The notes under the pieces: generated by a model
Seen by the model: the letters and a program-made list of their open reading frames with translations, nothing else
Databases searched by the model: none
Told to the model about the DNA's origin: nothing
Source of the DNA: Norana najaformis
Lineage: Eukaryota; Annelida; Clitellata; Crassiclitellata; Hormogastridae
Direction: 5' to 3'
DNA length: 64,000 nucleotides
NCBI GenBank assembly: GCA_964023275.1
Contig: OZ029914.1
Location: 30,325,851-30,389,850, forward strand
Shown: positions 621 to 35,784 of the stretch, one piece after another
Position numbering within the stretch: position 1 is the first letter of the stretch
Layout: every line of letters begins with the position of its first letter
Translations under genes and position numbers: made by a program

Positions 621-1359
621 GGTGCCAGTTGATACTGGCATCAGTTGGGAGGCTATCGGCAAGTCCTACTAATCAACAATCAGCCGTGTGTCCAGGACTT
701 CGGAGGCTCCGTCCGTTTGCCGGCTCAAATAACTAAGAAAAGGAAATTTGCGTCTGCTTTACGTATTCTCCATTACGACAGGGGTTCCTAAATGCTTTTG
801 CCAAAAAATTTAGCGACCTAAATGTTTGTTAACATATGAATTCTTAATTCAAACGCGAAATCTTGTCGAAATTTAGTCGCAGACATCTCCGTTATGCGAA
901 TAATAGAGACTTAGTTGACTAGTAAGTATCTACCTGTATTTACCTTTGTCGGCACTGAAACTTTGTAGCTTTTAGTTATGGGAAGGATTCAGTCGCGATT
1001 CACAAGAAGGCGTTCACGGTTTAAGTTTGATTTGCAACACAAGGTTTTTGAGGAAGCATTAGTTACTATTCGGAAAAAGAGGGGGTACGGTGATCAGCCA
1101 ATCTAAATTACATTGTGAAGAATAGCGCTGAAACCAGACATCTGCGCCATTAATTGAAGCTTAAAATCTTCACATTTCTTCAGCGACCGACAAAAGCAGA
1201 GGAACCGACTCATCCACCGAAGACAGATTACGGCTGATCTGAGCAACACAGAGCAGGAAGGACACAACGAATAAGTATATGTCAACGATAACGAATGGAG
1301 TGGACACGACTTCAGACAAATCTATACGTCAATGCCAAAGAAGCTTAATTTTTATGTTA

Positions 1360-1840
1360 TATTTACACATGCACACATACGTAATGTATATATATACGCT
1401 TACATACATGCAGCACGCATACATACATACACAGATGCGTACATAGATTATATACATCGATATTTACATACATACATATGATACATGAATACTGGTACAC
1501 GAATAGATGTATATAGGCCTATAAAAATAAATACACGCATACACAAATGCAAGCATAGATATATACATACATAGGTACTTATATAGACTACAAATATCGA
1601 CACATAGAAACATTCACACCGGTACATGCATTCATGCATGCATACATATATACACGCATGCATACATAGATACATAGATACATACACAGTTACATACACA
1701 CATTCATGCATGCATACATGACATACATAGATACATAAAAACATAGATACATACACAGATACATACACACATTCACGCATGCATACGTGCATACATACAT
1801 ATATACATACATGTACGTACATACACACGTAGCATTATAA
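1360..1840. repeat. (CATA)n-type degenerate microsatellite
   Basis: A second imperfect CATA block with CACA and GATA variants, conserved in position in copy 2 at about 12590-13055. No coding signal beyond repeat-driven frames. Confidence 0.9.
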
Positions 1841-4600
1841 CATGTAAGCTGTGTTTATAGCATAATATAAAATAAGCACTATAGGCCTATATGCATATCA
1901 CGTACAGACTATATGCAGTAAAGTAATGTATATCTTTCGGTTCACGTATAAGTTTACGACATTCATTCGTCTAAATCATCGGCTCCATCGTCCTTCTGGT
2001 CCCGTGGCTGGCGCTTTGGTTGGGAGTCTGCCGGCATTGGTCAGTTCTGCCGACCGTTCGAAAGGGGCAGGGCAGCTACGCAGCTTAGACCATGGGCCGA
2101 CCGACGCCGAAGCAAATCGATTTGCATGTTCCCCAGGGGAGTAATCTCTTTGTTAACGCCCGGCTTTGAAAATGTCGACCATCGATCGTCAGATCCGAAA
2201 TCTGTTTCTCCCTATAGAAACAGACCAACATATATGTGTAGATATATATATATGTATATATATGTGTATATATATGTATCTATACACATATACATGTAGC
2301 GTTGTTCTTGTTATATTGTCATGTATATATAACACGAAATGTTTGTGCTACAGTTATAATTACAAATTATAATTACATACATGCCTATATGTATCGTTGT
2401 ACTAGTTATATAACTACTGTAGACATTCATGTTCTGTTACAGTTACAGTTACAAAATTACAAAAAAGTCCGATCTGTTTGGGGTAGTGCTATTGGGGGTG
2501 GATGGCGCTAGACTTGTGCTTAGCGCCCATAAACATAAACATAGGGATCGATTCCAGACTCTGTAAGATAATAACTCGGACTAGGGCTACGATTTCGTTA
2601 GGATTCACTCAGTTTTCTGGATCTGAGATAATCCTTGATAATTGGACTTAAAGAGTAGAAGATTGGGTGCGCCATTCAAGTTTCCGACATTGAAGAGGAT
2701 GGATTCGTTTACAATTGGAGATGTAGGCTATGACGTATGCATAAATTATGGCCTACTTATATAGCGCCTTTGAGGGTTCTCAAAAAGCGCTATATACCTG
2801 CTCAGATCCATACATACATACATGCATGCATACATTCACATACATACATACATACGTATATGCAAACATACATACATGCATACATACATACATTGTTGTA
2901 GTGGCACGTGTTGAAGGGAATGCTAGAATGCTACCACTGGGTGCCATGTGCAACAGATGTTGTAGAGTAGGAGTGTCAGTTGTTTGGAGGGGAAAACGCC
3001 AACCTTTAATAGGTGTGTGCGTGATGTTGAGTCAGTCCGGCTTTTGGTTTTCGACCCTGTTGGTCTTTTCGTGTTGTTTGCCGGATTCACGACATGTCGT
3101 TGCTGTTCTCTTCCAGAAGTGGATGACTTACCTTTTTGAAGTTGATGTTTGTCGAAGGCATCTCCCTCTGAGATCCTGCTGTTCGTTTGGCCGCTGTGTT
3201 CGTTTCTGTGTACATGTGAGTCTTATTTTCGCTTGTACATACAGTAGCTTGGAGATAATATATTGTCATTTTAACTACCGCTGGCCTTCTTTTTCTGTCC
3301 TTAGACAACCTGCAACAACATATATACATACATATACATACAACATACATACATACATACATACATGTATACATACACAACATACATATTATGCCAGTGA
3401 GAATTGAGTTATGTATTTGCAACGGTGTTTACATATGTACATACGTATTGTACTGGCATAATGCATATATTCGAGTCAGGGTGTGTATGTTTTTGTCCGT
3501 GTATGTTTAAGTGTTTGTGTATATTTGTGAGACACATCGCTAAGGCAATACGGGCCTCAGTGGCCATGTATGCATGGCTGACAATGCAATGCGCTAATGC
3601 ATGGTGTGTAAGTGCACAATAAATTCAGTGCTATATACATTGTACTCTGTTGTGTTTAAATTATATTGTGTTTATGTTGCATTATGTAGTATTGTATTTT
3701 GTTTTGTTGTATTTTATTCGATTGTATTGTAGTTTGTTGTATGTTACTACATTGTAGTATATCATATTGCATTGTGTTCAGTGGCCTACCTGGCCGAGGA
3801 ATCCTGGAATCCGGATCCCCGCTGAGGTCAAGACCATGAACCTCGGGATTTGTGTAGTTCCAATGAGATTTTTTAGGTGTTCTCCCCCTTCCGATCGGCG
3901 CTCTGTCGACGGAAACGAGTGTCATACAACGAAGAGTATTTTCCAGCCTGATTTCATATATTCGATTTCTCGTATGTTTAATTTCGGCAAAATGCGTGTT
4001 CTTCTGGAGTTCTCCGCCCCGGACCCCGCTGGAGAAGTTTATGACGCCGCTCAGACCCCTATGCGATAGGCTTCAAGTCATCGACACTCGCTGTCTCAGA
4101 CCCCCGAGCTCCCATCCAGGTACTGGACCTCTGACTAAAAAACTTGCACAAATATGAAGCCCAAATGTGTTCAATCTCATAGTCTATGCTTCAAAACACG
4201 TTGTCTTTCGGGGTGGAGCCCCGAAACCCCGCTTGGGGAGCTTATGACACTTCCCCGCCACCCTAGTCCTTAGGGAGCTTACTGTTCCAGATCTCCATTT
4301 TCCTTTCGGTTCCGACCCCCCCGGCTTAAACAGTCGCGTAAGCCAATGACTGTGTTGTAATATATGATATTGTATTGTTAATTTTATTGTGTCGAATTTC
4401 ATTGTATAGTATAGTATAGCGTTAGCATTGTAGACATATTATTTAGTGTTGCCTTGCATTGTTTTGTGTGATAGCGATGCGCCACAACTAGCTGGGTCTA
4501 GATCGGAGATGGTGGACTTGCTATATCCAACCGTCAAGTCTCTTGACGTATGTTCGTTTGTCCGTCTGTCGATATGTCGTCTGTCTTTTCCCTCGCACAA
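1841..4600. other. Duplicated non-repetitive stretch without recognisable gene
   Basis: Mostly single-copy-looking sequence interrupted by short TA/CATA runs (2235-2300, 2810-2895, 3320-3385). It holds a 72-codon frame (1926-2144) and a longer frame (2748-3407) that are kept in copy 2, but near-identity of the copies keeps any frame, so this is not coding evidence. C/G-rich stretches at 4010-4060 and 4200-4320 resemble a run at 41340-41470 and may be a dispersed repeat. At 2757-2802 lies a retroelement terminal hairpin. No protein family is recognised. Confidence 0.6.
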
Positions 4601-4602
4601 CG

Positions 4603-4842
4603 GGGAACTCACCAGTGGGGAACTCACCAGTGGGGAACTCACCAGTGGGGAACTCACCAGTGGGGAACTCACCAGTGGGGAACTCACCAGTGGGGAACTC
4701 ACCAGTGGGGAACTCACCAGTGGGGAACTCACCAGTGGGGAACTCACCAGTGGGGAACTCACCAGTGGGGAACTCACCAGTGGGGAACTCACCAGTGGGG
4801 AACTCACCAGTGGGGAACTCACCAGTGGGGAACTCACCAGTG
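4603..4842. repeat. 15-bp minisatellite, 16 units
   Basis: Sixteen essentially perfect tandem copies of GGGAACTCACCAGTG. Because the unit is a multiple of three and has no stop in several frames, it creates long spurious open frames on both strands (GNSPV, GELTS, GTHQW forward; LVSSP, TGEFP reverse). The second duplication copy has 13 units at 15829-16023, so unit number has changed since the duplication. Confidence 0.98.
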
Positions 4843-4855
4843 ATGCATTGTTGGG

Positions 4856-5150
4856 TGACAGAGAGGTGAACGGAGAGAGCCAATAAAAGAGAGCGGGAAA
4901 TGAAGAGGAAAAAGAATGGAGAGAACAAAGGACAGTGAGAGTGGAGGGAGTAAGTAGGACGAGGAAGAGGAAAGGATAGGATGCGACACAGAGACAGAAA
5001 GAGAACAAGAAGGAGGAAGTAGGACAAAGAGACATTGAAGAAGAAATATACAGAGTTAGACAGTAAAGAGAGAAAGGGAGGGAGATGAAACGAGAGACAG
5101 AACCGGCCATTTGGTGTCGGGGAAACGAAGCCAATTGTTCGTCGAGCAAT
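4856..5150. repeat. Purine-rich (GA) tract next to minisatellite
   Basis: Imperfect AGAGA/GGAGA purine-rich sequence of about 290 bases following the minisatellite. The reverse strand gives long Ser/Leu/Phe-rich frames that look membrane-like only because of base composition. Duplicated at about 16040-16330. Confidence 0.75.
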
Positions 5151-5499
5151 TGTCTCTGATTTGACAGATTGCTTAGAAATATTTCGAGCTGATGTGGAAA
5201 TGGACATGACAGACGAATCCTCTGGCTTTATAGAACACGTCACACACAATGCATACAATGCGCATAACAGAAATATTTCTAAATTATATGTACACGTTAT
5301 GTAACAGAAAATATCTTTTCCTAAAAAGTACTGAGCAAACGGATTCATAGTGACAAATAATAATTTAGAGTTCGATGCCTGTAACTTTATGAACTTGACA
5401 TCGACCATAGAATAGTTGTTGCCAAGCTGGAGGTCATACTCCGTAGCCAAAGCCCAAAATCTCTACCAAACCTTGATTTAACATACACAGTTCTTAAGA

Positions 5500-5790
5500 T
5501 CCGGTCACCAAACATGCTTTTCCCACAGACATTGAAGAGAAGTTTGCCAGATGGGCAGCTGATGACAGCTGGGAGACTTTTCAAACAAGAGGTGGCGGCT
5601 GTAGTACGCAGGCTGAAAAACGGGAAGGCACCAGTTATCTGCCACATATCAGCCGAGCTGCTTAAAGTCGGGGGAGAGGAGGGCGCTAAATGGTTCATCT
5701 GTGTGGCAGCAGGCGTTTGGAAGTCTTTCTTGGCACCGCGTGACTGGACCAGAGGAATTATATCTTTACCTTTTTACAAGGGAAAGTGTG
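5500..5790 (+). pseudogene. Non-LTR retrotransposon RT fragment (copy 1)
   Basis: The forward translation contains the motif RLKNGKAP followed by a helix with AELLK and GGEE, then PRDW and ISLPFYKGK. This is the characteristic start of the reverse-transcriptase fingers in non-LTR retrotransposons (LKNGKAPG...EhLK.GG...W..s.i.PiyKGKG). Only about 95 residues survive with no upstream endonuclease and no following palm motifs, so it is a dead fragment. It is embedded in the duplicated segment, with its twin at 16681-16975. Confidence 0.8.
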
Positions 5791-5814
5791 TATGTATGCA
5801 TGTATCGAAAACTT

Positions 5815-6070
5815 ATATAGCGCTTTTTAAGTAACTCGCAAGAGCGCTAAGGCATGGCCACCTAGAGGTCTCTAAAAAGGTGTGTCTTAAGGCGTCAGAG
5901 AATGTTTCCTGGACTGTTGAAGAGGCGAGAGATCGTATATCAAGTGGCAAACTGTTCCAGAGAGATGGTCCCTCGCAGGAGAAAGAGCAGTTCTGTGTAA
6001 TGTAGGTCAAGTAATCTAGTATGCATTCGAAAAGACACTCATGTGCAAAGGCACTCATACAGAATGACAT
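5815..6070 (-). pseudogene. Non-LTR retrotransposon 3'-terminal fragment, reverse strand (copy 1)
   Basis: On the minus strand the peptide CSFSCEGPSLWNSLPLDIR followed by a TFLE-like end is the conserved C-terminal tail of CR1/L2-like reverse transcriptases (GP..WNsLP..iR...s...Fk..Lkt.Lf). It is followed on the minus strand by the terminal hairpin sequence near 5815-5850 (AGCGCTCTTGCGAG...AAAGCGCTATA). It lies tail to tail with the forward RT fragment just upstream. Confidence 0.8.
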
Positions 6071-6289
6071 TAAAACCGCAATAGAATCCTATCCGATATA
6101 TATGAATGTAACTATGTATATATATGTATGTATATTATGTACGTGCCACGTATATGTGAGGAGAAAATAAAATTTGGCTGAATGTCGACCGATTGCGGAG
6201 TTCGTTGAAGCAATTCGCGATTCTATATATGTGTTTCTACAGACGTGTTTCTACATATAGTGCTGAATATATATATATATATTGAGAGC

Positions 6290-7220
6290 TCGTTATGTTT
6301 GTTGCGCAATAGACCTAATTCACTCATTAGAGGTTTCTTCCGAAGCATTGTGTATTCACTACTTACTGATAGCTCTCTTGACTACTATTTGTATGCTGAT
6401 GATACCCAATTCTTCCTTTCATTTTATAGCTCCGCATCTAATACTGCCCTCCAACTATTTGCTTCTGTTTTTGACGATGTTAGAATCTTGGATGGCTAGT
6501 AATAAACTTCTTCTGAATCCTTCTAAAACCGAATTCCTGTCCTAGGTACCAGCCAGCAACGCCGTAAATTTGATTGCATTACGTCTCCAGTTGGTGGTCT
6601 ACTTGTTAACCGAACTGAAAGAGGACGTTGTGTGGCCTTGGTGTTTGATTCCACCATGTCACTTCCTAACCATGTTCAGGCCATATGCGGATCAGCTCAA
6701 TTTCATGTACGGGGTATTCGTATAAGCAGGTCTCATGTCCCTCAAACGGTATTGATCCTACTAGCTAATGCATTGGTTTCCAGCAGACTTAATTACGATA
6801 ACTCACTTCTCACTGGCATCACTAAGGGAGATCTTCACAAACTACAAATGGTTCAAAAATCTCTATTCAGAGTTATAACAAAAACTCTCAAGTATCAGAA
6901 TAATACACCAATACTGCATTCGTTACACTGGTTGCCCATCGAGCAAGAATCAACTTCAAAATCTGGTTAATAAAGTAATACATTTAAACCAGCCAACGTA
7001 TCTCTGTTCCATGCTCAACCGTCATACCAACAAATATTGCACTCGATCAGTGGATAGGCTACTATGACTTGTCCCTTGTAACAGAACAATGTTGGGTTCC
7101 AGAGCGTTCTCGGTTGCTGGTCCATGGCTCTGGAATTCGCCGGCAAATTCTATTCGTTCTGTCAATTCGGTGACGTCATTCAGCTCTAAATTTAAGACTC
7201 GTCTGTTACATCTTGTTTAG
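6290..7220 (+). pseudogene. Non-LTR retrotransposon RT pseudogene with YADDTQ motif (copy 1)
   Basis: Encodes the RT catalytic box YADDTQFF near 6390-6415, the downstream NPSKTEFL motif, the QTVLILLANALVSSRLNYDNSLL helix region, and near 7090-7215 the tail motif (FSVAGPWLWN, TRLLHLV). Relative to copy 2 it has at least two one-base frameshifts (near 6480 and 6540), so it cannot make a continuous protein. The YADDTQ form and tail fit the CR1/L2 side of non-LTR elements. The duplication breakpoint (6864) falls inside this pseudogene. Confidence 0.85.
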
Positions 7221-11720: not shown

Positions 11721-14700
11721 TGTGTGTCTGCCTCTCTTCGATTCCTTATTTTTCTCCGTATGTTCCTTCTCATTAGTTTCCTGACTATTTCTCTGCTTGT
11801 CGCACTTTCTATCGCCCACCATCCAACACCAGATCGTTCCGCAGGCGAAGAAGAGAGGCTGTCGTGCTGAAGGACATGCGATCTACTAAACCAGATGCTA
11901 AATGCATTTAATGAAGCGTACAAATGAGCGAGACTGGCAAATGCAAACGAGTTACAGGCGAATAAAGTCGATTAGTTTGTGCCAATTGTTCTGTGATGCG
12001 GAAATTTACGGGAACGCTAAACCTGTTTTATTCAACCTCTTGTAACGATGGACCTTGAACAAGCAGTGTGCACGTTAGCCTGTCACCTTGTTGAGATAAT
12101 ATTATAAGATAGGCGTGTGCAGAACTTTTTCAGGTACTTTTAAGGCATGATGTTAAGTGTCATCATATATACATACATACATGCATGCTTGCATACATAA
12201 GTGTACATACATGGGCATACATACATACAGACTTATAGACGTTTTAAGTTTGATTTGCAACACAAGGTTTTTGAGGAAGCATTAGTTACTATTCGGAAAA
12301 AGAGGGGGTACGGTGATCAGCCAATCTAAATTACATTGTGAAGAATAGCGCTGAAACCAGACATCTGCGCCATTAATTGAAGCTTAAAATCTTCACATTT
12401 CTTCAGCGCCCGACAAAAGCAGAGGAACCGACTCATCCACCGAAGACAGATTACGGCTGATCTGAGCAACACAGAGCAGGAAGGACACAACGAATAAGTA
12501 TATGTCAACGATAACGAATGGAGTGGACACGACTTCAGACAAATCTATACGTCAATGCCAAAGAAGCTTAATTTCTTTGTTATATTTACACATGCACACA
12601 TACGTAATGTATATATACGCTTACATACATGCAGCACGCATACATACATACACAGATGTGTACATAGATTATATACATCGATATTTACATACATACATAT
12701 GACACATGAATACTGGTACACGAATACATGTATATAGGCCTATAAAAATAAATACAAGCATATACACATATGCAAGCATACATACATACATACATAGGTA
12801 CTTATATAGACTACATATATCGACACATAGAAACATTCACACCGGTACATGCATTTATACATGCATACATATATACACGCATACATACATAGATACATAG
12901 ATACATACACAGTTACATACACACATTCATGCATGCATACATGACATACATAGATACATAAAACCATAGATACATACACAGATACATACATACATTCACG
13001 CCTGCATACATGCATACATACATACATATATACATACATGTACGTACATACACACGTAGCATTATAACATGTAAGCTGTGTTTATAGCATAATATAAAAT
13101 AAGCACTATAGGCCTATATGCATATCACGTACAGACTATATGCAGTAAAGTAATGTATATCTTTCGGTTCACGTATAAGTTTACGACATTCATTCGTCTA
13201 AATCATCGGCTCCATCGTCCTTCTGGTCCCGTGGCTGGCGCTTTGGTTGGGAGTCTGCCGGCATTGGTCAGTTCTGCCGACCGTTCGAAAGGGGCAGGGC
13301 AGCTACGCAGCTTAGACCATGGGCCGACCGACGCCGAAGCAAATCGATTTGCATGTTCCCCAGGGGAGTAATCTCTTTGTTAACGCCCGGCTTTGAAAAT
13401 GTCGACCATCGATCGTCAGATCCGAAATCTGTTTCTCCCTATAGAAACAGACCAACATATATGTGTAGATATATATATATGTATATATGTGTGTATATAT
13501 ATGTATCTATAAACATATACATGTAGCGTTGTTCTTGTTATATTGTCATGTATATATAATACGAAATGTTTGTGCTACAGTTATAATTATAAATTATAAT
13601 TACATACATGACTATATGTATCGTTGCACTAGTTATATAATTACTGTAGACATTTATGTTCTGTTACAGTTACAGTTACAAATTACAAAAAAATGTCCGA
13701 TCTGTTTGGGGTAGTGCTATTGGGGGTGGATGGGGCTAGACTTGTGCTTAGCGCCCATAAACATAAACATAGGTATCGATTCCAGACTCTGTAAGATAAT
13801 AACTCGGACTAGGGCTACGATTTCGTTAGGATTCACTCAGTTTTCTGGATCTAAGATAATCCTTGATAATTGGACTTAAAGAGTAGAAGATTGGGTGCGC
13901 CATTCAAGTTTCCGACATTGAAGAGGATGGATTCGTTTACAATTGGAGATGTAGGCTATGACGTATGCATAAATTATGGCCTACTTATATAGCGCCTTTG
14001 AGGGTTCTCAGAAAGCACTATATACGTGCTCAGATCCATACATACATACATACATGCATGCATGCATTCACATACATACATACATTCGTACATGCAAACA
14101 TACATACATGCATACATACATACATTGTTGTAGTGGCACGTGTTGAAGGGAATGCTAGAATGCTACCACTGGGTGCCATGTGCAACAGATGTTGTAGAGT
14201 AGGAGTGTCAGTTGTTTGGAGGGGAAAACGCCAACCTTTAATAGGTGTGTGCGTGATGTTGAGTCAGTCCGGCTTTTGGTTTTCGACCCTGTTGGTCTTT
14301 TCGTGTTGTTTGCCGGATTCACGACATGTCGTTGCTGTTCTCTTCCAGAAGTGGATGACTTACCTTTTTGAAGTTGATGTTTGTCGAAGGCATCTCCCTC
14401 TGAGATCCTGCTGTTCGTTTGGCCGCTGTGTTCGTTTCTGTGTACATGTGAGTCTTATTTTCGCTTGTACATAGCTTGGAGATAATATATTGTCATTTTA
14501 ACTACCGCTGGTCTTCTTTTTCTGTCCCTAGACAACCTGCAACAACATATATACATACATATACATACAGCATACATACATACATACATACATGTATACA
14601 TACACAACATACATATTATGCCAGTGAGAATTGAGTTATGTATTTGCAACGGTGTTTACATATGTACATACGTATTGTACTGGCATAATGCATATATTCG

Positions 14701-15828
14701 AGTCAGGGTGTGTATGTTTTTGTCCGTGTATGTTTAAGTGTTTGTGTATATTTGTGAGACACATCGCTAAGGCAATACGGGCCTCAGTGGCCATGTATGC
14801 ATGGCTGACAATGCAATGCGCTAATGCATGGTGTGTAAGTGCACAATAAATTCAGTGCTATATGCATTGTACTCTGTTGTTTTTAAATTATATTGTGTTT
14901 ATGCTGCATTGTATTGTATTGTATTTTGTTTTGTTGTATTTTATTCGATTGTATTGTAGTTTGTTGTATGTTACTACATTGTAGTATATCATATTGCATT
15001 GTGTTCAGTGGCCTACCTGGCCGAGGAATCCTGGAATCCGGATCCCCGCTGAGGTCAAGACCATGAACCTCGGGATTTGTGTAGTTCCAATGAGATTTTT
15101 TAGGTGTTCTCCCCCTTCCGATCGGCGCTCTGTCGACGGAAACGAGTGTCATACAACGAAGAGTATTTTCCAGCCTGATTTCATATATTCGATTTCTCGT
15201 ATGTTTAATTTCGGCAAAATGCGTGTTCTTCTGGAGTTCTCCGCCCCGGACCCCGCTGGAGAAGTTTATGACGCCGCTCAGACCCCTATGCGATAGGCTT
15301 CAAGTCATCGACACTCGCTGTCTCAGACCCCGAGCTCCCATCCAGGTACTGGACCTCTGACTAAAAAACTTGCACAAATATGAAGCCCAAATGTGTTCAA
15401 TCTCATAGTCTATGCTTCAAAACACGTTGTCTTTCGGGGTGGAGCCCCGAAACCCCGCTTGGGGAGCTTATGACACTTCCCCGCCACCCTAGTCCTTAGG
15501 GAGCTTACTGTTCCAGATCTCCATTTTCCTTTCGGTTCCGACCCCCCCGGCTTAAACAGTCGCGTAAGCCAATGACTGTGTTGTAATATATGATATTGTA
15601 TTGTTAATTTTATTGTGTCGAATTTCATTGTATAGTATAGTATAGCGTTAGCATTGTAGACATATTATTTAGTGTTGCCTTGCATTGTTTTGTGTGATAG
15701 CGATGCGCCACAACTAGCTGGGTCTAGATCGGAGATGGTGGACTTGCTATATCCAACCGTCAAGTCTCTTGACGTATGTTCGTTTGTCCGTCTGTCGATA
15801 TGTCGTCTGTCTTTTCCCTCGCACAACG

Positions 15829-16023
15829 GGGAACTCACCAGTGGGGAACTCACCAGTGGGGAACTCACCAGTGGGGAACTCACCAGTGGGGAACTCACCA
15901 GTGGGGAACTCACCAGTGGGGAACTCACCAGTGGGGAACTCACCAGTGGGGAACTCACCAGTGGGGAACTCACCAGTGGGGAACTCACCAGTGGGGAACT
16001 CACCAGTGGGGAACTCACCAGTG
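15829..16023. repeat. 15-bp minisatellite, 13 units (copy 2)
   Basis: Same GGGAACTCACCAGTG unit as at 4603-4842 with three fewer units. All long frames across it on either strand are products of the three-divisible unit. Confidence 0.98.
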
Positions 16024-16680
16024 ATGCATTGTTGGGTGACAGAGAGGTGAACGGAGAGAGCCAATAAAAGAGAGCGGGAAATGAAGAGGAAAAAGAATGG
16101 AGAGAACAAAGGACAGTGAGAGTGGAGGGAGTAAGTAGGACGAGAAAGAGGAAAGGATAGGATGCGACACAGAGACAGAAAGAGAACAAGAAGGAGGAAG
16201 TAGGACAAAGAGACATTGAAGAAGAAATATACAGAGTTAGACAGTAAAGAGAGAAAGGGAGGGAGATGAAACGAGAGACAGAACCGGCCATTTGGTGTCG
16301 GGGAAACGAAGCCAATTGTTCGTCGAGCAATTGTCTCTGATTTGACAGATTGCGTAGAAATATTTCGAGCTGGTGTGGAAATGGACATGACAGACGAATC
16401 CACTGGCTTTACAGAACACGTCACACACAATGCATACAATACGCATAACAGAAATATTTCTAAATTATATGTACACGTTATGTAACAGAAAATATCTTTT
16501 CCTAAAAAGTACTGAGCATACGGATTCATAGTGACAAATAATAATTTAGAGTTCGATGCCTGTAACTTTATGAACTTGACATCGACCATAGAATAGTTGT
16601 TGCCAAGCTGGAGGTCATACTCCGTAGCCAAAGCCCAAAATCTCTACCAAACCGTGATTTAACATACACAGTTCTTAAGA

Positions 16681-16975
16681 TCCGGTCACCAAACATGCTT
16701 TTCCCACAGACATTGAAGAGAAGTTTGCCAGATGGGCAGCTGATGACAGCTGGGAGACTTTTCAAACAAGAGGTGGCAGCTGTAGTACGCAGGCTGAAAA
16801 ACGGGAAGGCACCAGTTATCTGCCACATATCAGCCGAGCTGCTTAAAGTCGGGGGAGAGGAGGGCACTAAATGGTTCACTTGTGTGGCAGCAGGCGTTTG
16901 GAAATCTTTCTTGGCACCGCGTGACTGGACCGGAGGAATTATATCTTTACCTTTTTACAAGGGAAAGTGTGTATG
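16681..16975 (+). pseudogene. Non-LTR retrotransposon RT fragment (copy 2)
   Basis: Duplicate of the fragment at 5500-5790 with a few substitutions; same RLKNGKAP, AELLK and LPFYKGK signature of the RT fingers. No flanking domains. Confidence 0.8.
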
Positions 16976-16984
16976 TATGCATGT

Positions 16985-17195
16985 ATCGAAAAACTTATAA
17001 AGCGCTTTTTAAGTAACTCGCAAGAGCGCTAAGGCATAGCCACCTAGAGTTCTCTAAAAAGGTGTGTCTTAAGGCGTCAGAGAATGTTTCCTGGACTGTT
17101 GAAGAGGGGAGAGATCGTATATCAAGTGGCAAACTGTTCCAGAGAGACGGTCCCACGCAGGAGAAAGAGCAGTTCTGTGTAATGTAGGGCAAGTA
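16985..17195 (-). pseudogene. Non-LTR retrotransposon 3'-terminal fragment, reverse strand (copy 2)
   Basis: Duplicate of 5815-6070; minus-strand peptide GPSLWNSLPLDIRSL is the RT tail signature. The region just downstream has lost about 20 bases present in copy 1. Confidence 0.8.
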
Positions 17196-17449
17196 ATCTA
17201 GTATGCATTCGAAAAGACACTCATACAGAATGACAGTAAAACCGCAATAAAATCCTATCCGATATATATATGTATGTAACTATGTATATATGTATGTATG
17301 TATATTATGTACGTGCCACGTATATGTGAGGAGAAAATAAAATTAGGCTGAATGTCGACCGATTGCGGAGTTCGTTGAAGCAATTCGCGATTCTATATAT
17401 GTGTTTCTACAGACGTGTTTCTACATATAGTGCTGAATATATATATATA

Positions 17450-18400
17450 TATTGAGAGCTCGTTATGTTTGTTGCGCAATAGACCTAATTCACTCATTAG
17501 AGGTTTCTTCCGAAGCATTGTGTATTCACTACTTACTGATAGCAGCTCTCTTGACTACCATTTGTATGCTGATGATACCCAATTCTTCCTTTCATTTTAT
17601 AGCTCCGCATCTAATACTGCCCTCCAACTATTTGCTTCTGTTTTTGACGATGTTCAGTCTTGGATGGCTAGTAATAAACTTCTTCTGAATCCTTCTAAAA
17701 CCGAATTCCTGCTCCTAGGTACCAGCCAGCAACGCCGTAAATTTGATTGCAGTACGTCTCCAGTTGGTGGTCTACTTGTTAACCGAACTGAAAGAGCACG
17801 TTGGGTGGCCTTGGTATTTGTTGCCACCATGTCACTTCCTAACCATGTTCAGGCCATATGCAGATCAGCTCAATTTCATGTACGGGGTATTCACATAAGC
17901 AGGTCTCATGTCCCTCAAACTGCATTGATCCTACTAGCTAATGCATTGGTTTCCAGCAGACTTAATTACGATAACTCACTTCTCACTGGCATCACTAAGG
18001 GAGGGAGATCTTCACAAACTACAAATGGTTCAAAAATCTCTCGCCAGAGCCATAACAAAACCATCTGAGTCTCAGTATATTAAATAATACTTCATTCCTT
18101 AAACTGGCTGCAAACTGAGCAGATAATCAGTTTAAAATGTCTTTTAGTTCACAAAGTGCTATGTATCTGAACAAACCGACCCATCTGTGTTCCATGCGCA
18201 ATCCTCATAGCAGTAAATATTGCACTGGATCAATGGGCACTGACTTTTGGGGTACCTCGACCAGAACTTTGTTGGGTTCCCGTACGTTCTCGGAACTGGT
18301 TCTAGGCTTTGGGATTCGCTGCCAGTGCAATTATGGTAACGGCGCCATGGAACCAGTAGATCAGATTGGATTAGACGAGCTATGGTTATGATTACGATCT
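17450..18400 (+). pseudogene. Non-LTR retrotransposon RT pseudogene with YADDTQ motif (copy 2)
   Basis: A 217-codon frame from 17415 includes YADDTQFFLSF (RT catalytic aspartates), NPSKTEFLLLGTSQ and the QTALILLANALVSSRLNYDNSLL region. It is therefore less damaged than copy 1, which has frameshifts in the same place. A GGGA-type insertion near 18001 shifts the frame before the C-terminus. From 18042 to about 18400 the RT tail continues but is clearly diverged from copy 1 (the LLGSRTFSE stretch replaces LGSRAFSVAGP). Confidence 0.85.
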
Positions 18401-21686: not shown

Positions 21687-21728
21687 GAATATCTTGTACC
21701 TGAATGCGACTGATGGCTGACGTGTGAG

Positions 21729-24044
21729 ATGCTTCTTCCTCTGTTGACGATCCTCCTTCTCCTGACACTCGTTACTTCTTCCATGCAGCCATTTCCACCT
21801 CCTCTGTCTTTCTTCTCTTCCTCTCCCTCCTCTTCCTTTTCCTCAACAGCTTTCCCGCCCGTTGCCCTGAGGATCGCTCTCTGTCAAACGACGTTGTGCT
21901 CATGCGGAAAGGGTCGGTTTGAGGACTTAATCAACGACGCCTTTTTCCATCCGTTGATCATGGTCGACTGCTCCTATCGCAACCTTTCCACTCTGCCAGC
22001 GAGCATTCCGCTTGGCACGCATTCCCTCAACCTGCGTGGTAACGTCATTTCCGTCGCCTCTGGGTTTTGGTTTCTGCCGTTGTCCGAGTCCCTCCAGCGC
22101 CTCGATCTGTCGCTGAACAACATCTCAAATCTTCGTTCTCTGATGGACTCTCCAGCCTGGATGTCGTTGAGGTACCTCGACCTGGCCCACAACACGATCG
22201 AGTGTCTAGAACGCGGTGTGTTCGAGAAAGCGCCGAAGTTGTCCTACCTTGACCTGTCCCACAATCTGATTCGCGTCCTGGAGGACGGGTGCTTCATCGG
22301 CCTCGACGGATTGGCCTATCTATCCCTGCGCAATAACCATATCTTTCATTTACCTAGCGCCACATTCGAGGCTATCTACAGTTTAACCTCCGTAAGACTG
22401 GATAAGAATCAAATCGGCGACGTCTCAGGGGAGGTGTTCGCGGCTGCGCTGTCGAAGTTGGCGGAAAACGTTACGACTTCCGCTAATGAAATCAAGAACG
22501 TTCGATCGCATTCACTGTCGAACCTAGATAGATTGCGAAAGATCGATATCTCGTATAATTTTATTAAATCTGTTGGTCCGTTGACCCTGTCCGCACTGCG
22601 TTCTCTGACAGACGTCACCTTTGACGGGAATCTGATCGATCGATTGTCTCGCGGCGACCTCTACTCGTCGGCCGTTCGCGAGCTCAGTCTCTGTCGAATG
22701 CCACGCCTTTCCGTGGTCGACGAGGGAGCCTTCTTCGACCTCGAAGACCTGGAGATTCTGCGGCTGAGCGAGAATCCGCGGCTCGTATATATACATCCGC
22801 TTGCTCTGATGAGGGTGGAGCGCCTGCGAGTGCTAGATCTACGTGGCAACGGGCTCTTCGCCATTCCAGAGGACCTCGCTCTTGCCAGTCCTAATCTGGA
22901 GATGATTCGCATCTCCGAAAATCCGCTGCACTGCGACTGCAACGCGCGCTGGATCGGCCACTACATTGGTGTCGAAACCGGAAGCAGTTCGACTACGAGT
23001 TCTCACCGGAACTGGACCTTCGGAAACGTCAGCGACGGGGAGGATGTCCCTGTTTGCGACAGTCCGGCCGATAAACATTCCATGTCGCTGCGTGGCCTGG
23101 ACTTCCGTTCCATTCCGGAACGCTGTCGCCCAGTCGTTGTTCCGCTCTTCGTCGGTTCCGCTCTCCACGAAGTCGGTTCCAGCGCCACCTTCAGCTGCCG
23201 TTCCATCGGGATTCCGCTCCCCAAGATCCACTGGATTCTTCCTAGCGGCAAAGTGGTAAACGGCACTCCAAACGACAGCCGGATCCGCTTCGATTCGAGC
23301 GGATCGCTTACCGTCAACCACCTGAAACCCGTCGACTACGGAACCTACACTTGTCTGGCGTCGAACCCCAAAGGCTACGATGCCGCGTCCGTTCGTCTCA
23401 CCCTCTATTCCAGCGGAGTGCGGATTCTGCTTAAAAGCGTCTCCTGGAATTTCGTTTCCGTGACGTGGAACGGAACAGACTCTACCATCTCGACGGCCAA
23501 CTACGTCATCCTTCATCGTTCGACAGCAGACGGCCAAAAATACGGAGACTACGGTAGAATCCCGCTGAGGCCATACATGCGAGCGTTTACGGTAACGAAC
23601 CTTGACCCGCGAACGTCATATGAGTTTTGTATTGCGTGCGAAAGGGCCGAGAAGGACGGAGCGATGGAGAAACTCAGTTGCATATCAGTATGGACCAAGG
23701 ACTACCCAGCGTCCAGGGTTGGAATCTCGTCTGTGCTTGACGACAGCGTGACGGCTGAGGTGCTGAGCGTTGTCGCCTTGGTTCTGGCGGCTACCCTCGT
23801 TTTGGTAGCCGTCGGGAGGTACAGGAGGAGGAGGTCGTACAGGGAGCCACGAGGCTTCCGGCTGGAAAAGGAGAGTTCGCTCGGAACGCTCCAAGGTGAA
23901 GCCACCAGACGAGGTAGCTTCAAGGTCCACGAGGGAAAGCCGAACATCCCTTTGAGAGAACTCTTTCAAACGACGACGACAACAATGCTTCAGGCGAATG
24001 CATCCAATTCGCGCACTTCGCTGCTCGAATCATACGAAGCGTGA
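21729..24044 (+). CDS. LRRN-like leucine-rich repeat, Ig and FN3 transmembrane receptor
   Basis: A 771-residue type I membrane protein in one coding exon. Residues 1-18 are a signal peptide; a Ser/Pro-rich linker follows. A cysteine cluster (Cys52-Cys81) forms the LRRNT cap, about 11 leucine-rich repeats run from about 85 to 395 with the LxxLxLxxNxI pattern, and LHCDCNARW at 400-408 starts the LRRCT cap. An Ig C2 domain spans about 475-560 (Cys490 and Cys542, with W502 and DYGTYTC). An FN3 domain runs about 565-655. A transmembrane segment (about 678-696) is followed by RYRRRR and a 70-residue tail. This order matches the vertebrate LRRN family (about 700 residues, intronless coding region), which acts in neuronal adhesion and guidance; orthology is inferred. 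The start has G at -3, an in-frame upstream stop, and a short upstream ORF (21704-21727) ending just before it. The third and later repeats carry N-glycosylation sites. Confidence 0.9.
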   Translation: MLLPLLTILLLLTLVTSSMQPFPPPLSFFSSSPSSSFSSTAFPPVALRIALCQTTLCSCGKGRFEDLINDAFFHPLIMVDCSYRNLSTLPASIPLGTHSLNLRGNVISVASGFWFLPLSESLQRLDLSLNNISNLRSLMDSPAWMSLRYLDLAHNTIECLERGVFEKAPKLSYLDLSHNLIRVLEDGCFIGLDGLAYLSLRNNHIFHLPSATFEAIYSLTSVRLDKNQIGDVSGEVFAAALSKLAENVTTSANEIKNVRSHSLSNLDRLRKIDISYNFIKSVGPLTLSALRSLTDVTFDGNLIDRLSRGDLYSSAVRELSLCRMPRLSVVDEGAFFDLEDLEILRLSENPRLVYIHPLALMRVERLRVLDLRGNGLFAIPEDLALASPNLEMIRISENPLHCDCNARWIGHYIGVETGSSSTTSSHRNWTFGNVSDGEDVPVCDSPADKHSMSLRGLDFRSIPERCRPVVVPLFVGSALHEVGSSATFSCRSIGIPLPKIHWILPSGKVVNGTPNDSRIRFDSSGSLTVNHLKPVDYGTYTCLASNPKGYDAASVRLTLYSSGVRILLKSVSWNFVSVTWNGTDSTISTANYVILHRSTADGQKYGDYGRIPLRPYMRAFTVTNLDPRTSYEFCIACERAEKDGAMEKLSCISVWTKDYPASRVGISSVLDDSVTAEVLSVVALVLAATLVLVAVGRYRRRRSYREPRGFRLEKESSLGTLQGEATRRGSFKVHEGKPNIPLRELFQTTTTTMLQANASNSRTSLLESYEA

Positions 24045-24975: not shown

Positions 24976-25451
24976 TCAATTTTGTAAAGAAAACCCAGTC
25001 CACTCTTTAAACGATGTCTTTGGCAAAACTAAAATGTCATAATAAGCTTTATTTATGGCTAATTATAATTCTTGCTGATTCATATAATGCCTACATCCTT
25101 ATAATGTAAAATCAGCATATCTTGCCGCGTGCTGAGATATTGCTGATTCAACGAAATAACTATTCCGTAGCCTACAGCTTACTCAGCACTAAATTCATGG
25201 CCTCATTTAGAATTTATTTGTGCTTATACAGCGTTTCATGGTTTCGAACTATGTAAATAGATTATGCTGAAGTCAGCATTTATAGCCTATATAAACCGCC
25301 TCCTGAAAGCTAGAGCAGCCGCAGTCGTCTTAGGGCATATTAAGAGTTGGTCGCAAGAACAATCTGTGAATGTGAACATTAAATAACTACATGTTCTTAC
25401 TATTTTTTAGGTTAGTCATTTAATTCCTCAGATGCGAACATCCTTAAGGTT

Positions 25452-27155
25452 ATGGCTACTTCCAGACGGAGCTGCATTAACCATCCAGACATATTCTGCT
25501 ACATTTGTGGGGAATACACACTAAAAGCAAACAGGAAACCGATTTCTGAGTTTGTAAAAAGAGCATATGTAGGTTATTTTGGTGTCAAACTTGGAGATCA
25601 AGATAAGCAATGGGCTCCTCATACAGTATGCAAAACTTGTATTGAACGATTGCGCCACTGGACAATTGGAAAGAGAAGCTGCCTGAAATTTGGTGTACCG
25701 ATGGTTTGGAGGGAACAGATAAACCACTTCGACGACTGTTACTTTTGTATGGCTAATATCATAGGCATCAATCGAAATAATCGTCACAAGTTGTCTTACC
25801 CTGATATACCTTCAGCCAGGAGACCTGTTCCGCATTCGGATATTGTACCAGTTCCACCTTTTCGCGAACTACCTCAGCTCTCAGACGATGACACTTGCAT
25901 GTCCAATATCGGACAAGATGACGAAAGTGAAGAAAGTGGGGGCAGTGACAGTGATTTCCAATCAACTTCACACAGTGAACGTTTTGACCAAAAAGAGTTG
26001 AGTGATCTGATCAGGGACTTAAATCTTTCCAAAGAGTCCTCTGAATTGCTTGCGTCCAGACTAAAGGAAAAGAATGCACTTCAGCCTGGAACGAAAATTA
26101 CAATTTATAGAAACAGAGAAAAGGATTTGCTGCCATTCTTTACCGAAGACAACAACCTAGTATTCTGTAATGACATCAGCAACTTATTGAAGAAAATTGG
26201 TCTGTCGGATTACAGCCCAGATGAGTGGCGTCTTTTTATCGACAGTTCAAAACGTAGTCTGAAATGTGTGCTTTTAAATAACGGCAACAAATTTGGTTCT
26301 ATTCCAATCGGTCACTCCACCAGGATGAAAGAAGAGTACAATGCCATCTCTTTAGTACTGGAAAAGATAAAATACAAAGAACATCAATGGGTAATTTGTG
26401 TAGACTTGAAGATGGTAAATTTCCTCCTTGGTCAACAAAGTGGCTACACAAAGTATCCCTGCTTTTTGTGTCTTTGGGACAGTAGAGCCAAGCATGAACA
26501 TTGGACAAGAAAAGATTGGCCTTCGAGGAAAGACATGGTGGTTGGAGCTCAAAATGTAATCAAGGAATCTTTGGTGGCACGAGATAGGATCATACTGCCA
26601 CCACTACATATAAAGCTAGGCCTGATGAAACAATTTGTCAGGGCTTTGAATAAAGAAGGTTCATTCTTCGAATACATAGTACACAAGTTACCAGGAATTA
26701 CAATGGAAAAATTGAAGGCTGGAATCTTCGATGGTCCACAGATCAGGCAACTTATGAATGACCCACTTTTCATACCATCAATGAATGAAATCGAATCTTG
26801 TGCCTGGTCTTCCTTTGTTCTTGTAACTAAAAATTTTCTTGGCAACAAGAAGGCAGACAATTATGCACAACTAGTAGAGGATATGCTTCTTCATTGCAAC
26901 AAGCTTGGCTGCAACATGAGCATTAAAGTCCATTATCTCCACAGTCACTTAGATCGCTTTCCAGAGAATCTTGGTGACTTCAGCGAAGAGCAAGGTGAAA
27001 GATTTCACCAAGACATCAAAACAATGGAAAATCGATATCAAGGAAGATGGGATGCACACATGATGGCAGACTATTGCTGGAATATTATGCGCGATTGTTC
27101 CGGCAGATGCCACACTCGGAAATCGTACAAAAGGAGCTTCTTCGGTGTCGAATGA
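25452..27155 (+). CDS. Transposase-like protein of the TIR element
   Basis: 567 residues, uninterrupted. Residues 8-100 hold paired cysteines (C16/C19, C26-region, H57/C60/C63, H92/C96/C99), a probable zinc-binding DNA recognition module. An acidic Ser/Asp/Glu stretch covers about 144-172. The C-terminal half has a candidate RNase-H-like DDE core: D264 in LFIDSSKRS, D318 in ICVDLKMV, and a glutamate in FSEEQGERFHQ (512-516). A C337-x2-C340 and H348-x-H350 zinc knuckle sits between the second Asp and the Glu, as in several eukaryotic transposase superfamilies. From memory, similar single-exon proteins are scattered through invertebrate genomes without assigned function. The inverted repeats flanking the ORF are the main evidence that it is a transposase. 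The start at 25452 is the first ATG of the open frame. An AATAAA lies at about 27264. Confidence 0.8.
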   Translation: MATSRRSCINHPDIFCYICGEYTLKANRKPISEFVKRAYVGYFGVKLGDQDKQWAPHTVCKTCIERLRHWTIGKRSCLKFGVPMVWREQINHFDDCYFCMANIIGINRNNRHKLSYPDIPSARRPVPHSDIVPVPPFRELPQLSDDDTCMSNIGQDDESEESGGSDSDFQSTSHSERFDQKELSDLIRDLNLSKESSELLASRLKEKNALQPGTKITIYRNREKDLLPFFTEDNNLVFCNDISNLLKKIGLSDYSPDEWRLFIDSSKRSLKCVLLNNGNKFGSIPIGHSTRMKEEYNAISLVLEKIKYKEHQWVICVDLKMVNFLLGQQSGYTKYPCFLCLWDSRAKHEHWTRKDWPSRKDMVVGAQNVIKESLVARDRIILPPLHIKLGLMKQFVRALNKEGSFFEYIVHKLPGITMEKLKAGIFDGPQIRQLMNDPLFIPSMNEIESCAWSSFVLVTKNFLGNKKADNYAQLVEDMLLHCNKLGCNMSIKVHYLHSHLDRFPENLGDFSEEQGERFHQDIKTMENRYQGRWDAHMMADYCWNIMRDCSGRCHTRKSYKRSFFGVE

Positions 27156-34469: not shown

Positions 34470-34525
34470 AAGACACTTGATATAGCGCCTTTTAATGACC
34501 TCTCAAAAGGGCTCTCAAACCAAAC
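34470..34525 (-). repeat. Retroelement terminal hairpin fragment
   Basis: Contains GATATAGCGCCTTTTAATGACCTCTCAAAAGGGCTC, an isolated copy of the 3'-terminal hairpin seen at the end of the L2-like elements here, in reverse orientation. Confidence 0.6.
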
Positions 34526-34755: not shown

Positions 34756-35784
34756 TTACTTGCCGCCAAGGAATTCGGAAAATCGCTTTCGTTTTCCTCC
34801 GAGAAACTCGGAGAATCTTTTCCTTTTGCCTCCAAGAAATTCCGAGAATCTCTTCTTTCCTCCGAGAAACTCCGAAAATCGTTTGCGTCTTCCTCCGAGA
34901 AATTCAGAGAATCGCTTCTCTTCATCAGCTGCTTCAGAGTCCTCCTCAGGTTCAGTACTTCGGTCGATCTCGTCTTCATGGTAGTCTGGAACGAAATGAA
35001 TTGACAAACCTCATTAATCAAAAATGCAAGAAGAATGAAAGCAGACAATGAAGGATAAAAGAGAAAAAAGGTACTGTGAGGTGCTAAACGACGCTGTTTA
35101 CAATGTCTAGATACATGCATACATACAAAGGAAAACTAGAATAACAGACAAATGACCCATTGAAGGAAGGAAGGAAGGAAAAGTGGAAATTAGCGAATAA
35201 TAATAATCATGAGAGAGTAATTAGTATAAGGTAAGACAAAAACAGCATAAAAATCTAGAAAATGCTGGAGCGCAAAGTATCTGGACGAGAAAAACTGTCA
35301 TCATCATCATCATCACCACCACCATCATCATCATCTCATCATCACCACCACCATCATCATCACCAGCAGCAGATCAGCATCACCTACACCACCACCACTA
35401 CCACCCCACCACCACCTACACCACCACCATTATTATCATCATCATCATCATCATCATACTTTTTCAAAATCTGACGGATCCTTTCTACCCCGGGTAAATA
35501 ATTTTAAAACTTTACAATCGGTTCAGGTAAAATGGTCTAAGACGGCAAAATGTTCAACCTAGCATCGGCGAATTATCTTCGTTTTTGCGTCTAAGGTCTT
35601 CTAGGTAGAGCTCCGTGATGAACTGTCTCAATCGAGGCTTCAGCGAGGCGTCGTCCTTGACCGTTTCCGGTCGTTCGACGTCTGCTACGAAGCCCCTGTG
35701 GTCGAACGACCCATCGCAGAGGTTCAGAGTAAACCTGGCGGCGACCAGAACCCCCAGAACCAACAGCTTCAGTAAGTCCGGCAT
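34756..35784 (-). CDS. EFLGamide (TRH-type) neuropeptide precursor, two exons
   Basis: Exon 1 is 35784 down to 35559 and exon 2 is 34985 down to 34756. The inferred product is 151 residues. Residues 1-24 form a signal peptide (MPDLLKLLVLGVLVAA core). A spacer with RLRQFITELYLEDLRRK (51-67) and an acidic stretch (79-98) follow. Five identical copies of FSEFLGG start at 101, 112, 122, 133 and 144. They are separated by basic sites (RRKR, KKR, KRKR, KRKR) and the last ends GGK-stop. Convertase cleavage and amidation from the last Gly would give five FSEFLG-amides. EFLGamides are ligands of TRH-receptor orthologues in annelids, acting as secreted neuromodulators; the match to that family is strong. 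The donor CTAG|GTTGAA is weak, but it is the only GT before the exon 1 stop and matches the phase of the acceptor TTCGTTCCAG at 34986. The five copies use different synonymous codons. An in-frame stop precedes the start codon. Confidence 0.82.
34986..35558 (-). other. Intron of the EFLGamide precursor gene
   Basis: 573 bases between the phase-matched donor and acceptor (both leave one base, then AC, making GAC/Asp76). It contains CAT/CAC triplet repeats at 35297-35458. No conserved internal element was recognised. Confidence 0.65.

Follow-up and report, generated by a model that had tools for sequence, protein, structure and literature searches.

The window analysed in this work, a stretch of 64,000 nucleotides from the genome of Norana najaformis, contains on its minus strand (positions 34756 to 35784) a gene that very probably encodes a protostome TRH-type (EFLGamide) neuropeptide precursor of an annelid. 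It was confirmed that this locus is a real two-exon neuropeptide precursor gene. Its TRH-type identity, which an earlier note made from the DNA had proposed, is borne out by sequence matches to other precursors, by the identity of the predicted peptide with the ligand reported from Platynereis and by the presence of at least seven TRH-receptor-type loci in the genome. The ligand result for Platynereis, which reportedly comes from Bauknecht and Jekely 2015, is cited here by way of reviews. The accessible text of two reviews gives FSEFLGamide as the ligand of the Platynereis TRH-type receptor (PMC4772807; PMC5818035), in agreement with the view of the earlier note that EFLGamides are the annelid ligands of TRH receptors. 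As FSEFLGamide has already been reported in Platynereis, the peptide is not new, and the gene is a further member of a known family, to which it adds its architecture and the numbers of ligand and receptor genes.

Structure of the precursor gene and its splice junction

The coding part of exon 1 (35559..35784, minus strand, 226 nt) begins with an ATG at 35784, encodes a signal peptide and a spacer, and ends one base into codon 76. The signal peptide covers approximately residues 1–23 (35716..35784, minus strand; the cleavage point is approximate), with a hydrophobic core from residue 4 and a mean Kyte-Doolittle value of 2.83 over 11 residues. It was called from hydropathy and from the similar start of two relatives (P0002 and P0014). 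Residues 55–64, also within exon 1, read FITELYLEDL, a recurring spacer motif. A phase-1 intron of 573 nt follows (34986..35558, minus strand), which has GT..AG borders (G/GTTGAA ... TTCCAG/AC) and a weak donor. The coding part of exon 2 (34756..34985, minus strand, 230 nt) contains an acidic spacer and the five FSEFLGG units and runs to a stop codon whose last base is 34756. When recomputed, this layout of 226, 573 and 230 nt gave a joined coding sequence of 456 nt that is in frame and specifies 151 amino acids, with Asp76 formed from G and AC; both the two-exon structure with a signal-peptide exon and the agreement of the splice phases, as previously described, are thus upheld. A possible polyadenylation signal, ATTAAA (34491..34496, minus strand), lies about 260 nt past the stop; it is weak and was recognised by its motif only.

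The five copies of FSEFLGG, all on the minus strand, are located at 34891..34911 (followed by RRKR), 34858..34878 (KKR), 34828..34848 (KRKR), 34795..34815 (KRKR) and 34762..34782, where the last copy has only one K between it and the stop. The five perfect repeats that had been noted are therefore present, but the statement that they lie between dibasic sites does not extend to the end of copy 5. In all five copies a C-terminal glycine, as part of GG, precedes a basic residue, which in copy 5 is the single K, as is expected of amidated peptides. The repeated units also conform to the family signature of several copies with the core E-[F/L]-[L/F/V], as given in the accessible part of one study (PMC8398477). 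The predicted peptide begins with Phe and not with the N-terminal Gln, converted to pyroglutamate, that would characterise TRH in the narrow sense.

The donor G/GTTGAA is poor, scoring −4.7 bits in comparison to 2.4 bits for the donor of a paralogue on contig C12 (described below), where the matrix was a generic one and GT donors only were scored. Among these, GTTGAA is the only one in phase 1 ahead of the stop at which the frame of exon 1 closes. An alternative acceptor 24 nt upstream is likewise in phase, and the frame is open there. The intron phase is identical in the C12 paralogue. One of the related sequences, P0002, is a protein of 146 aa from a 998-base contig with the tag lgn, which we take to denote assembled public reads. 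It is a single open reading frame that starts with MPDLLK as does the window gene and retains the spacer motif, and in it NFNMP runs into EYYLED and then EEKRFSEFLGG. As P0002 is unbroken across the same position, the junction 35559/34985 is supported. A second relative, P0014, matches exon 1, and from this same point onward its sequence is unrelated. The gene is predicted to be spliced and expressed in N. najaformis.

Related precursors and alternative explanations for the locus

A protein database search with the precursor yielded 47 matches at E 0.001 or better, and 32 of them contain FSEFLGG (27 before K or R and five in the form SEFLGGPG); the kinship with EFLGamide precursors, for which the earlier note had called for such a search, is hence well founded. 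The SEFLGGPG form was found in Limulus, Tachypleus, Centruroides and Amblyomma, and thus in precursors from horseshoe crabs, scorpions and ticks; Ostrea edulis is the one other organism-named match. A motif of the LLADLY type is present in 11 of the 47 homologues, a count made with a loose pattern and no control. The LLADLYxxDL type of spacer motif was observed behind the signal peptide in P0013, P0019, P0025 and P0032, as at residues 55–64 of the window gene, and a signal-like start was seen in several homologues. At E 0.001, Pfam contained no family matching the precursor.

The species' own genome (608 Mb in 17 contigs) was scanned by pattern, with Ser and Leu restricted to a single codon set, and seven exact FSEFLGG sites were detected, comprising the five in the window gene and two on contig C12; this restriction leaves the census incomplete, as copies using AGY or TTR codons would escape it. 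On C12, the locus (L008) forms an intact gene model of 167 aa, in which exon 1 (L008:3783-4017) has a hydrophobic start, the intron (869 nt) is in phase 1 as in the window gene, and exon 2 (L008:4887-5155) carries two FSEFLGGK units. The two genes share the same exon plan and both have a motif of the LLADLY type in their spacers. A protein search with the C12 paralogue gave only six matches, all of them already among the 47 of the window precursor, and none of the six was recognisable as an orthologue of the paralogue. Pfam showed nothing in this protein at E 1.

Simple and tandem repeats abound in the window, and it may be asked whether the five units are a tandem DNA repeat that is open by accident and has no peptide function. 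The heptamer FSEFLGG occurs five times after two basic residues in the real window, whereas none of 30 dinucleotide shuffles contained a heptamer that occurred even twice after a dibasic site. Other such heptamers in the window are MEWKNGL (twice) and DPRRPAP, which recurs four times in a separate open reading frame made by a repeat, and for this reason the shuffle control alone is insufficient against a plain tandem repeat. Against such an origin, seven of the 21 nucleotide columns vary among the five copies and all seven are third codon positions, a pattern with a probability of about 9e-6 if columns are drawn freely, related copies not being independent. As every variable column is a third position, the FSEFLGG peptide is under selection, and its presence in 32 of the 47 homologues likewise speaks against an accidental frame, whose probability we consider negligible. 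On the shuffles and the codon pattern of the copies together, chance or a simple-repeat origin was rejected. It is also very unlikely that the window copy is a decaying duplicate with an eroded donor while the C12 paralogue does the work. The difference in donor scores given above, obtained with a generic matrix, would suit such decay, but the frame of the window gene is open, its five peptides are identical and differ in their codons at third positions only, and its signal peptide resembles those of P0002 and P0014. Further, it is the C12 copy that has just two units and is farther from P0002, which shows 52% identity to the window precursor and 30% to the paralogue.

Another explanation is suggested by the organisation of related genes in other species. 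In Platynereis, according to the available text of one study, FVa units and a stop codon precede the EFLGa units on one mRNA; the EFLGa units themselves possess neither a start nor a signal peptide, neuron-specific stop-codon read-through is proposed for this mRNA, and Capitella is said there to resemble this layout (PMC3890597). The accessible part of another describes a single oyster gene whose alternative splicing yields either a MIP or a fulicin precursor, and states the same for Capitella (PMC8398477); as they stand in these texts, the two accounts of Capitella disagree. By analogy, exon 2 could belong to an FVamide/EFLGamide gene as its downstream portion, reached by read-through or alternative splicing, with exon 1 as one of several alternative leaders, and the weak donor GTTGAA would suit regulated splicing. 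However, in the 264 kb around the gene (less 2,500 bases) no open reading frame of 25 or more residues was found with at least two [FYW][VILM]-G-basic units, as expected for an FVa or MIP partner, a scan that sees two or more units only. The bicistronic arrangement, in which EFLGa is preceded by FVa units and a stop, was accordingly not found at the window gene in the 264 kb scanned, and the 573-nt intron contains no repeated FVa unit. The 9.9 kb surrounding the C12 paralogue likewise showed no F-V/I-Gly-dibasic unit, and exon 1 leads in frame directly into the EFLG units, as it does in P0002. On these grounds we regard a downstream position in an FVamide gene as very unlikely, and prefer a stand-alone EFLGamide precursor. 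In the part of a further report that was available, EFLGamide/TRH precursors are described from nemerteans, and neither the peptide nor its receptor from phoronids (PMC8557429). Because of these nemertean precursors, and of the signal-like start in several homologues, stand-alone EFLGamide precursors are probably not unique to this genome.

TRH-receptor-type loci in the genome

A search of the genome with human TRHR, a query that was checked against PDB over 398 residues, gave 130 matching pieces, with 104 of 995 genome candidates scored. At least seven TRHR-type loci (receptors A to G) were identified, near C4:21.655M, C2:24.818M, C16:16.016M, C9:22.711M, C3:1.724M, C13:9.149M and C2:44.628M; this count is a lower bound, as only 104 of the 995 candidates were scored. 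In six of these loci the pieces of the first half show 43–50% identity to human TRHR at E ≤ 2.1e-46, while the seventh (G), which is split by an extra intron, matches in three pieces of 50, 37 and 55% with a best E of 2.9e-27; matches of the next receptor class begin at 33% and 8e-25. A CAG/GT donor behind [N/S]R[IV]Q closes the first half in all seven loci, and in each of the six where the second half is known, the frame continues in phase 0 from V-[TI]-[KR]-ML. A profile of the seven receptors scored 374.9 bits against human TRHR in PDB, compared with 164.5 bits for the next type (CCK-A). Four residues of human TRHR that we take to be TRH-binding are conserved, Tyr106 and Asn110 in 7/7 loci and Tyr282 and Arg306 in 6/6 loci that have a 3′ exon. 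When one receptor was compared with the database, every functionally named match among the 120 listed (of 2,036) was a TRH receptor, many others being unnamed or hypothetical, and the best organism-named match among those listed was from Capitella teleta (58%). Nine of the 120 listed matches are from Limulus, and several TRH receptors per species are hence not peculiar to this genome.

Two of the loci show irregularities. Receptor locus B (L031, G000:C2:24816682-24818353) lacks four residues of TM6 (LPY----VYNSF) that are kept in the other five loci with this exon, and given this gap it may be impaired. For receptor locus D (L047, G000:C9:22710600-22714600), neither the approximately 2.7 kb behind the first half nor the nearby listed matches yielded a second-half exon.

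A phylogenetic tree was constructed from 34 receptors, including 22 of the 120 listed database receptors. In this tree all seven receptors fall within a clade of 18 annelid and unnamed sequences (99/98). Receptor E branches with one receptor from the leech Helobdella (96/90) and receptor F with the other Helobdella receptor (100/96), while receptors A, B and G group together with four unnamed sequences (98/95). Receptors C and D have no stable place, D being a long branch that is without its 3′ exon. The annelid Owenia lies outside the annelid clade, beside human TRHR (85/75). From its receptors, the host is likely a clitellate or a near relative. The claim that the precursor also places the organism phylogenetically does not hold for the peptide by itself, as FSEFLGG is also found in chelicerates; the TRH receptors, with their position in the annelid clade, serve this purpose better. 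In this rough tree, some of the receptor duplications appear to predate the split from leeches, and the date of the expansion is rough because only 22 of the 120 listed receptors were included.

Proposed mechanism, comparison with known systems and neighbouring features

Neuropeptides are generally produced from precursors with a signal peptide by cleavage at basic sites, trimming and amidation. By analogy with this pathway we infer that exon 1 would supply the signal peptide and exon 2 the cargo, so that the precursor could enter the secretory pathway, be cut at its basic sites and be trimmed by a carboxypeptidase. The second glycine of each FSEFLGG unit would then be used for C-terminal amidation, yielding up to five FSEFLG-amide peptides per precursor, and the gene on C12 may contribute two further copies. 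The peptide is predicted to act on TRH-receptor-type GPCRs such as those encoded by the seven or more loci in this genome.

Of the known systems, the FVa-EFLGa precursor of Platynereis dumerilii, so far as the available texts describe it, shares with the window gene the peptide predicted here, its reported ligand being FSEFLGamide; in contrast to its EFLGa units, which follow FVa units and a stop, those of the window gene are joined to a signal-peptide exon of their own, with no FVa repeats in 264 kb. The fulicin of the oyster Crassostrea gigas, in the accessible account, resembles the present case in its amidated peptides with an E/D-F-L core and is regarded as TRH-type (PMC8398477), but its gene is shared with MIP, a partner not seen here, and its signature (F/Y)S(E/D)FL(M/o)amide is without the glycine of EFLG. 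The chelicerate precursors (Limulus, Tachypleus, Centruroides and Amblyomma) are similarly multi-copy with a repeated SEFLGG core, and since Pro-Gly follows this core their predicted peptide is longer than that of the window gene. Vertebrate TRH (pGlu-His-Pro-amide) is also a short amidated peptide encoded in multiple copies and acting on the same receptor type, whereas the window peptide has neither an N-terminal Gln or pyroglutamate nor any sequence likeness to it, and the link between them runs via the receptors.

Since the EFLGamide units are predicted to be spliced directly to a signal-peptide exon, an annelid may be able to produce the peptide from a conventional secretory precursor, a point of relevance to the stop-codon read-through put forward for Platynereis. 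We give roughly even chances to the broader reading that the TRH system of this species has been freed from an FVa/EFLGa transcript and has expanded, with two self-standing genes that provide the same peptide at different dose and seven receptors, some of which were duplicated before the split from leeches. If true, it would constitute a natural test of whether the Platynereis read-through is ancestral or a peculiarity of that lineage. With both ligand genes and the seven receptor loci located in a single chromosome-scale genome, the pairing of ligands and receptors in a probable clitellate can be tested directly. A literature search, from which supplements and most subscription journals were excluded, retrieved no description of seven TRH receptors or of two EFLGamide genes in an annelid.

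An open reading frame with four [YF]IGLGKR units (L017, G000:C2:30471535-30472035, plus strand) lies some 110 kb 5′ of the gene; it is apparently another amidated-peptide precursor, of the GL-amide type, and its only match in Pfam is below threshold (E 0.24). Within the window, an intact frame of 772 aa (21726-24041, plus strand) contains leucine-rich repeats and an Ig domain above the Pfam cut-offs and a weak fn3 below them. A recent direct duplication involves positions ~1000-7000 and 12200-18000, about 11.2 kb apart; its two long blocks are 98.6% and 93.9% identical, single pieces go down to 82%, and it includes a 15-bp tandem array (reading GELTS) as well as, in the second copy, a reverse-transcriptase match below threshold. 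Lastly, an open frame of 579 aa (25416-27152, plus strand), which has no Pfam match, is possibly derived from a mobile element.
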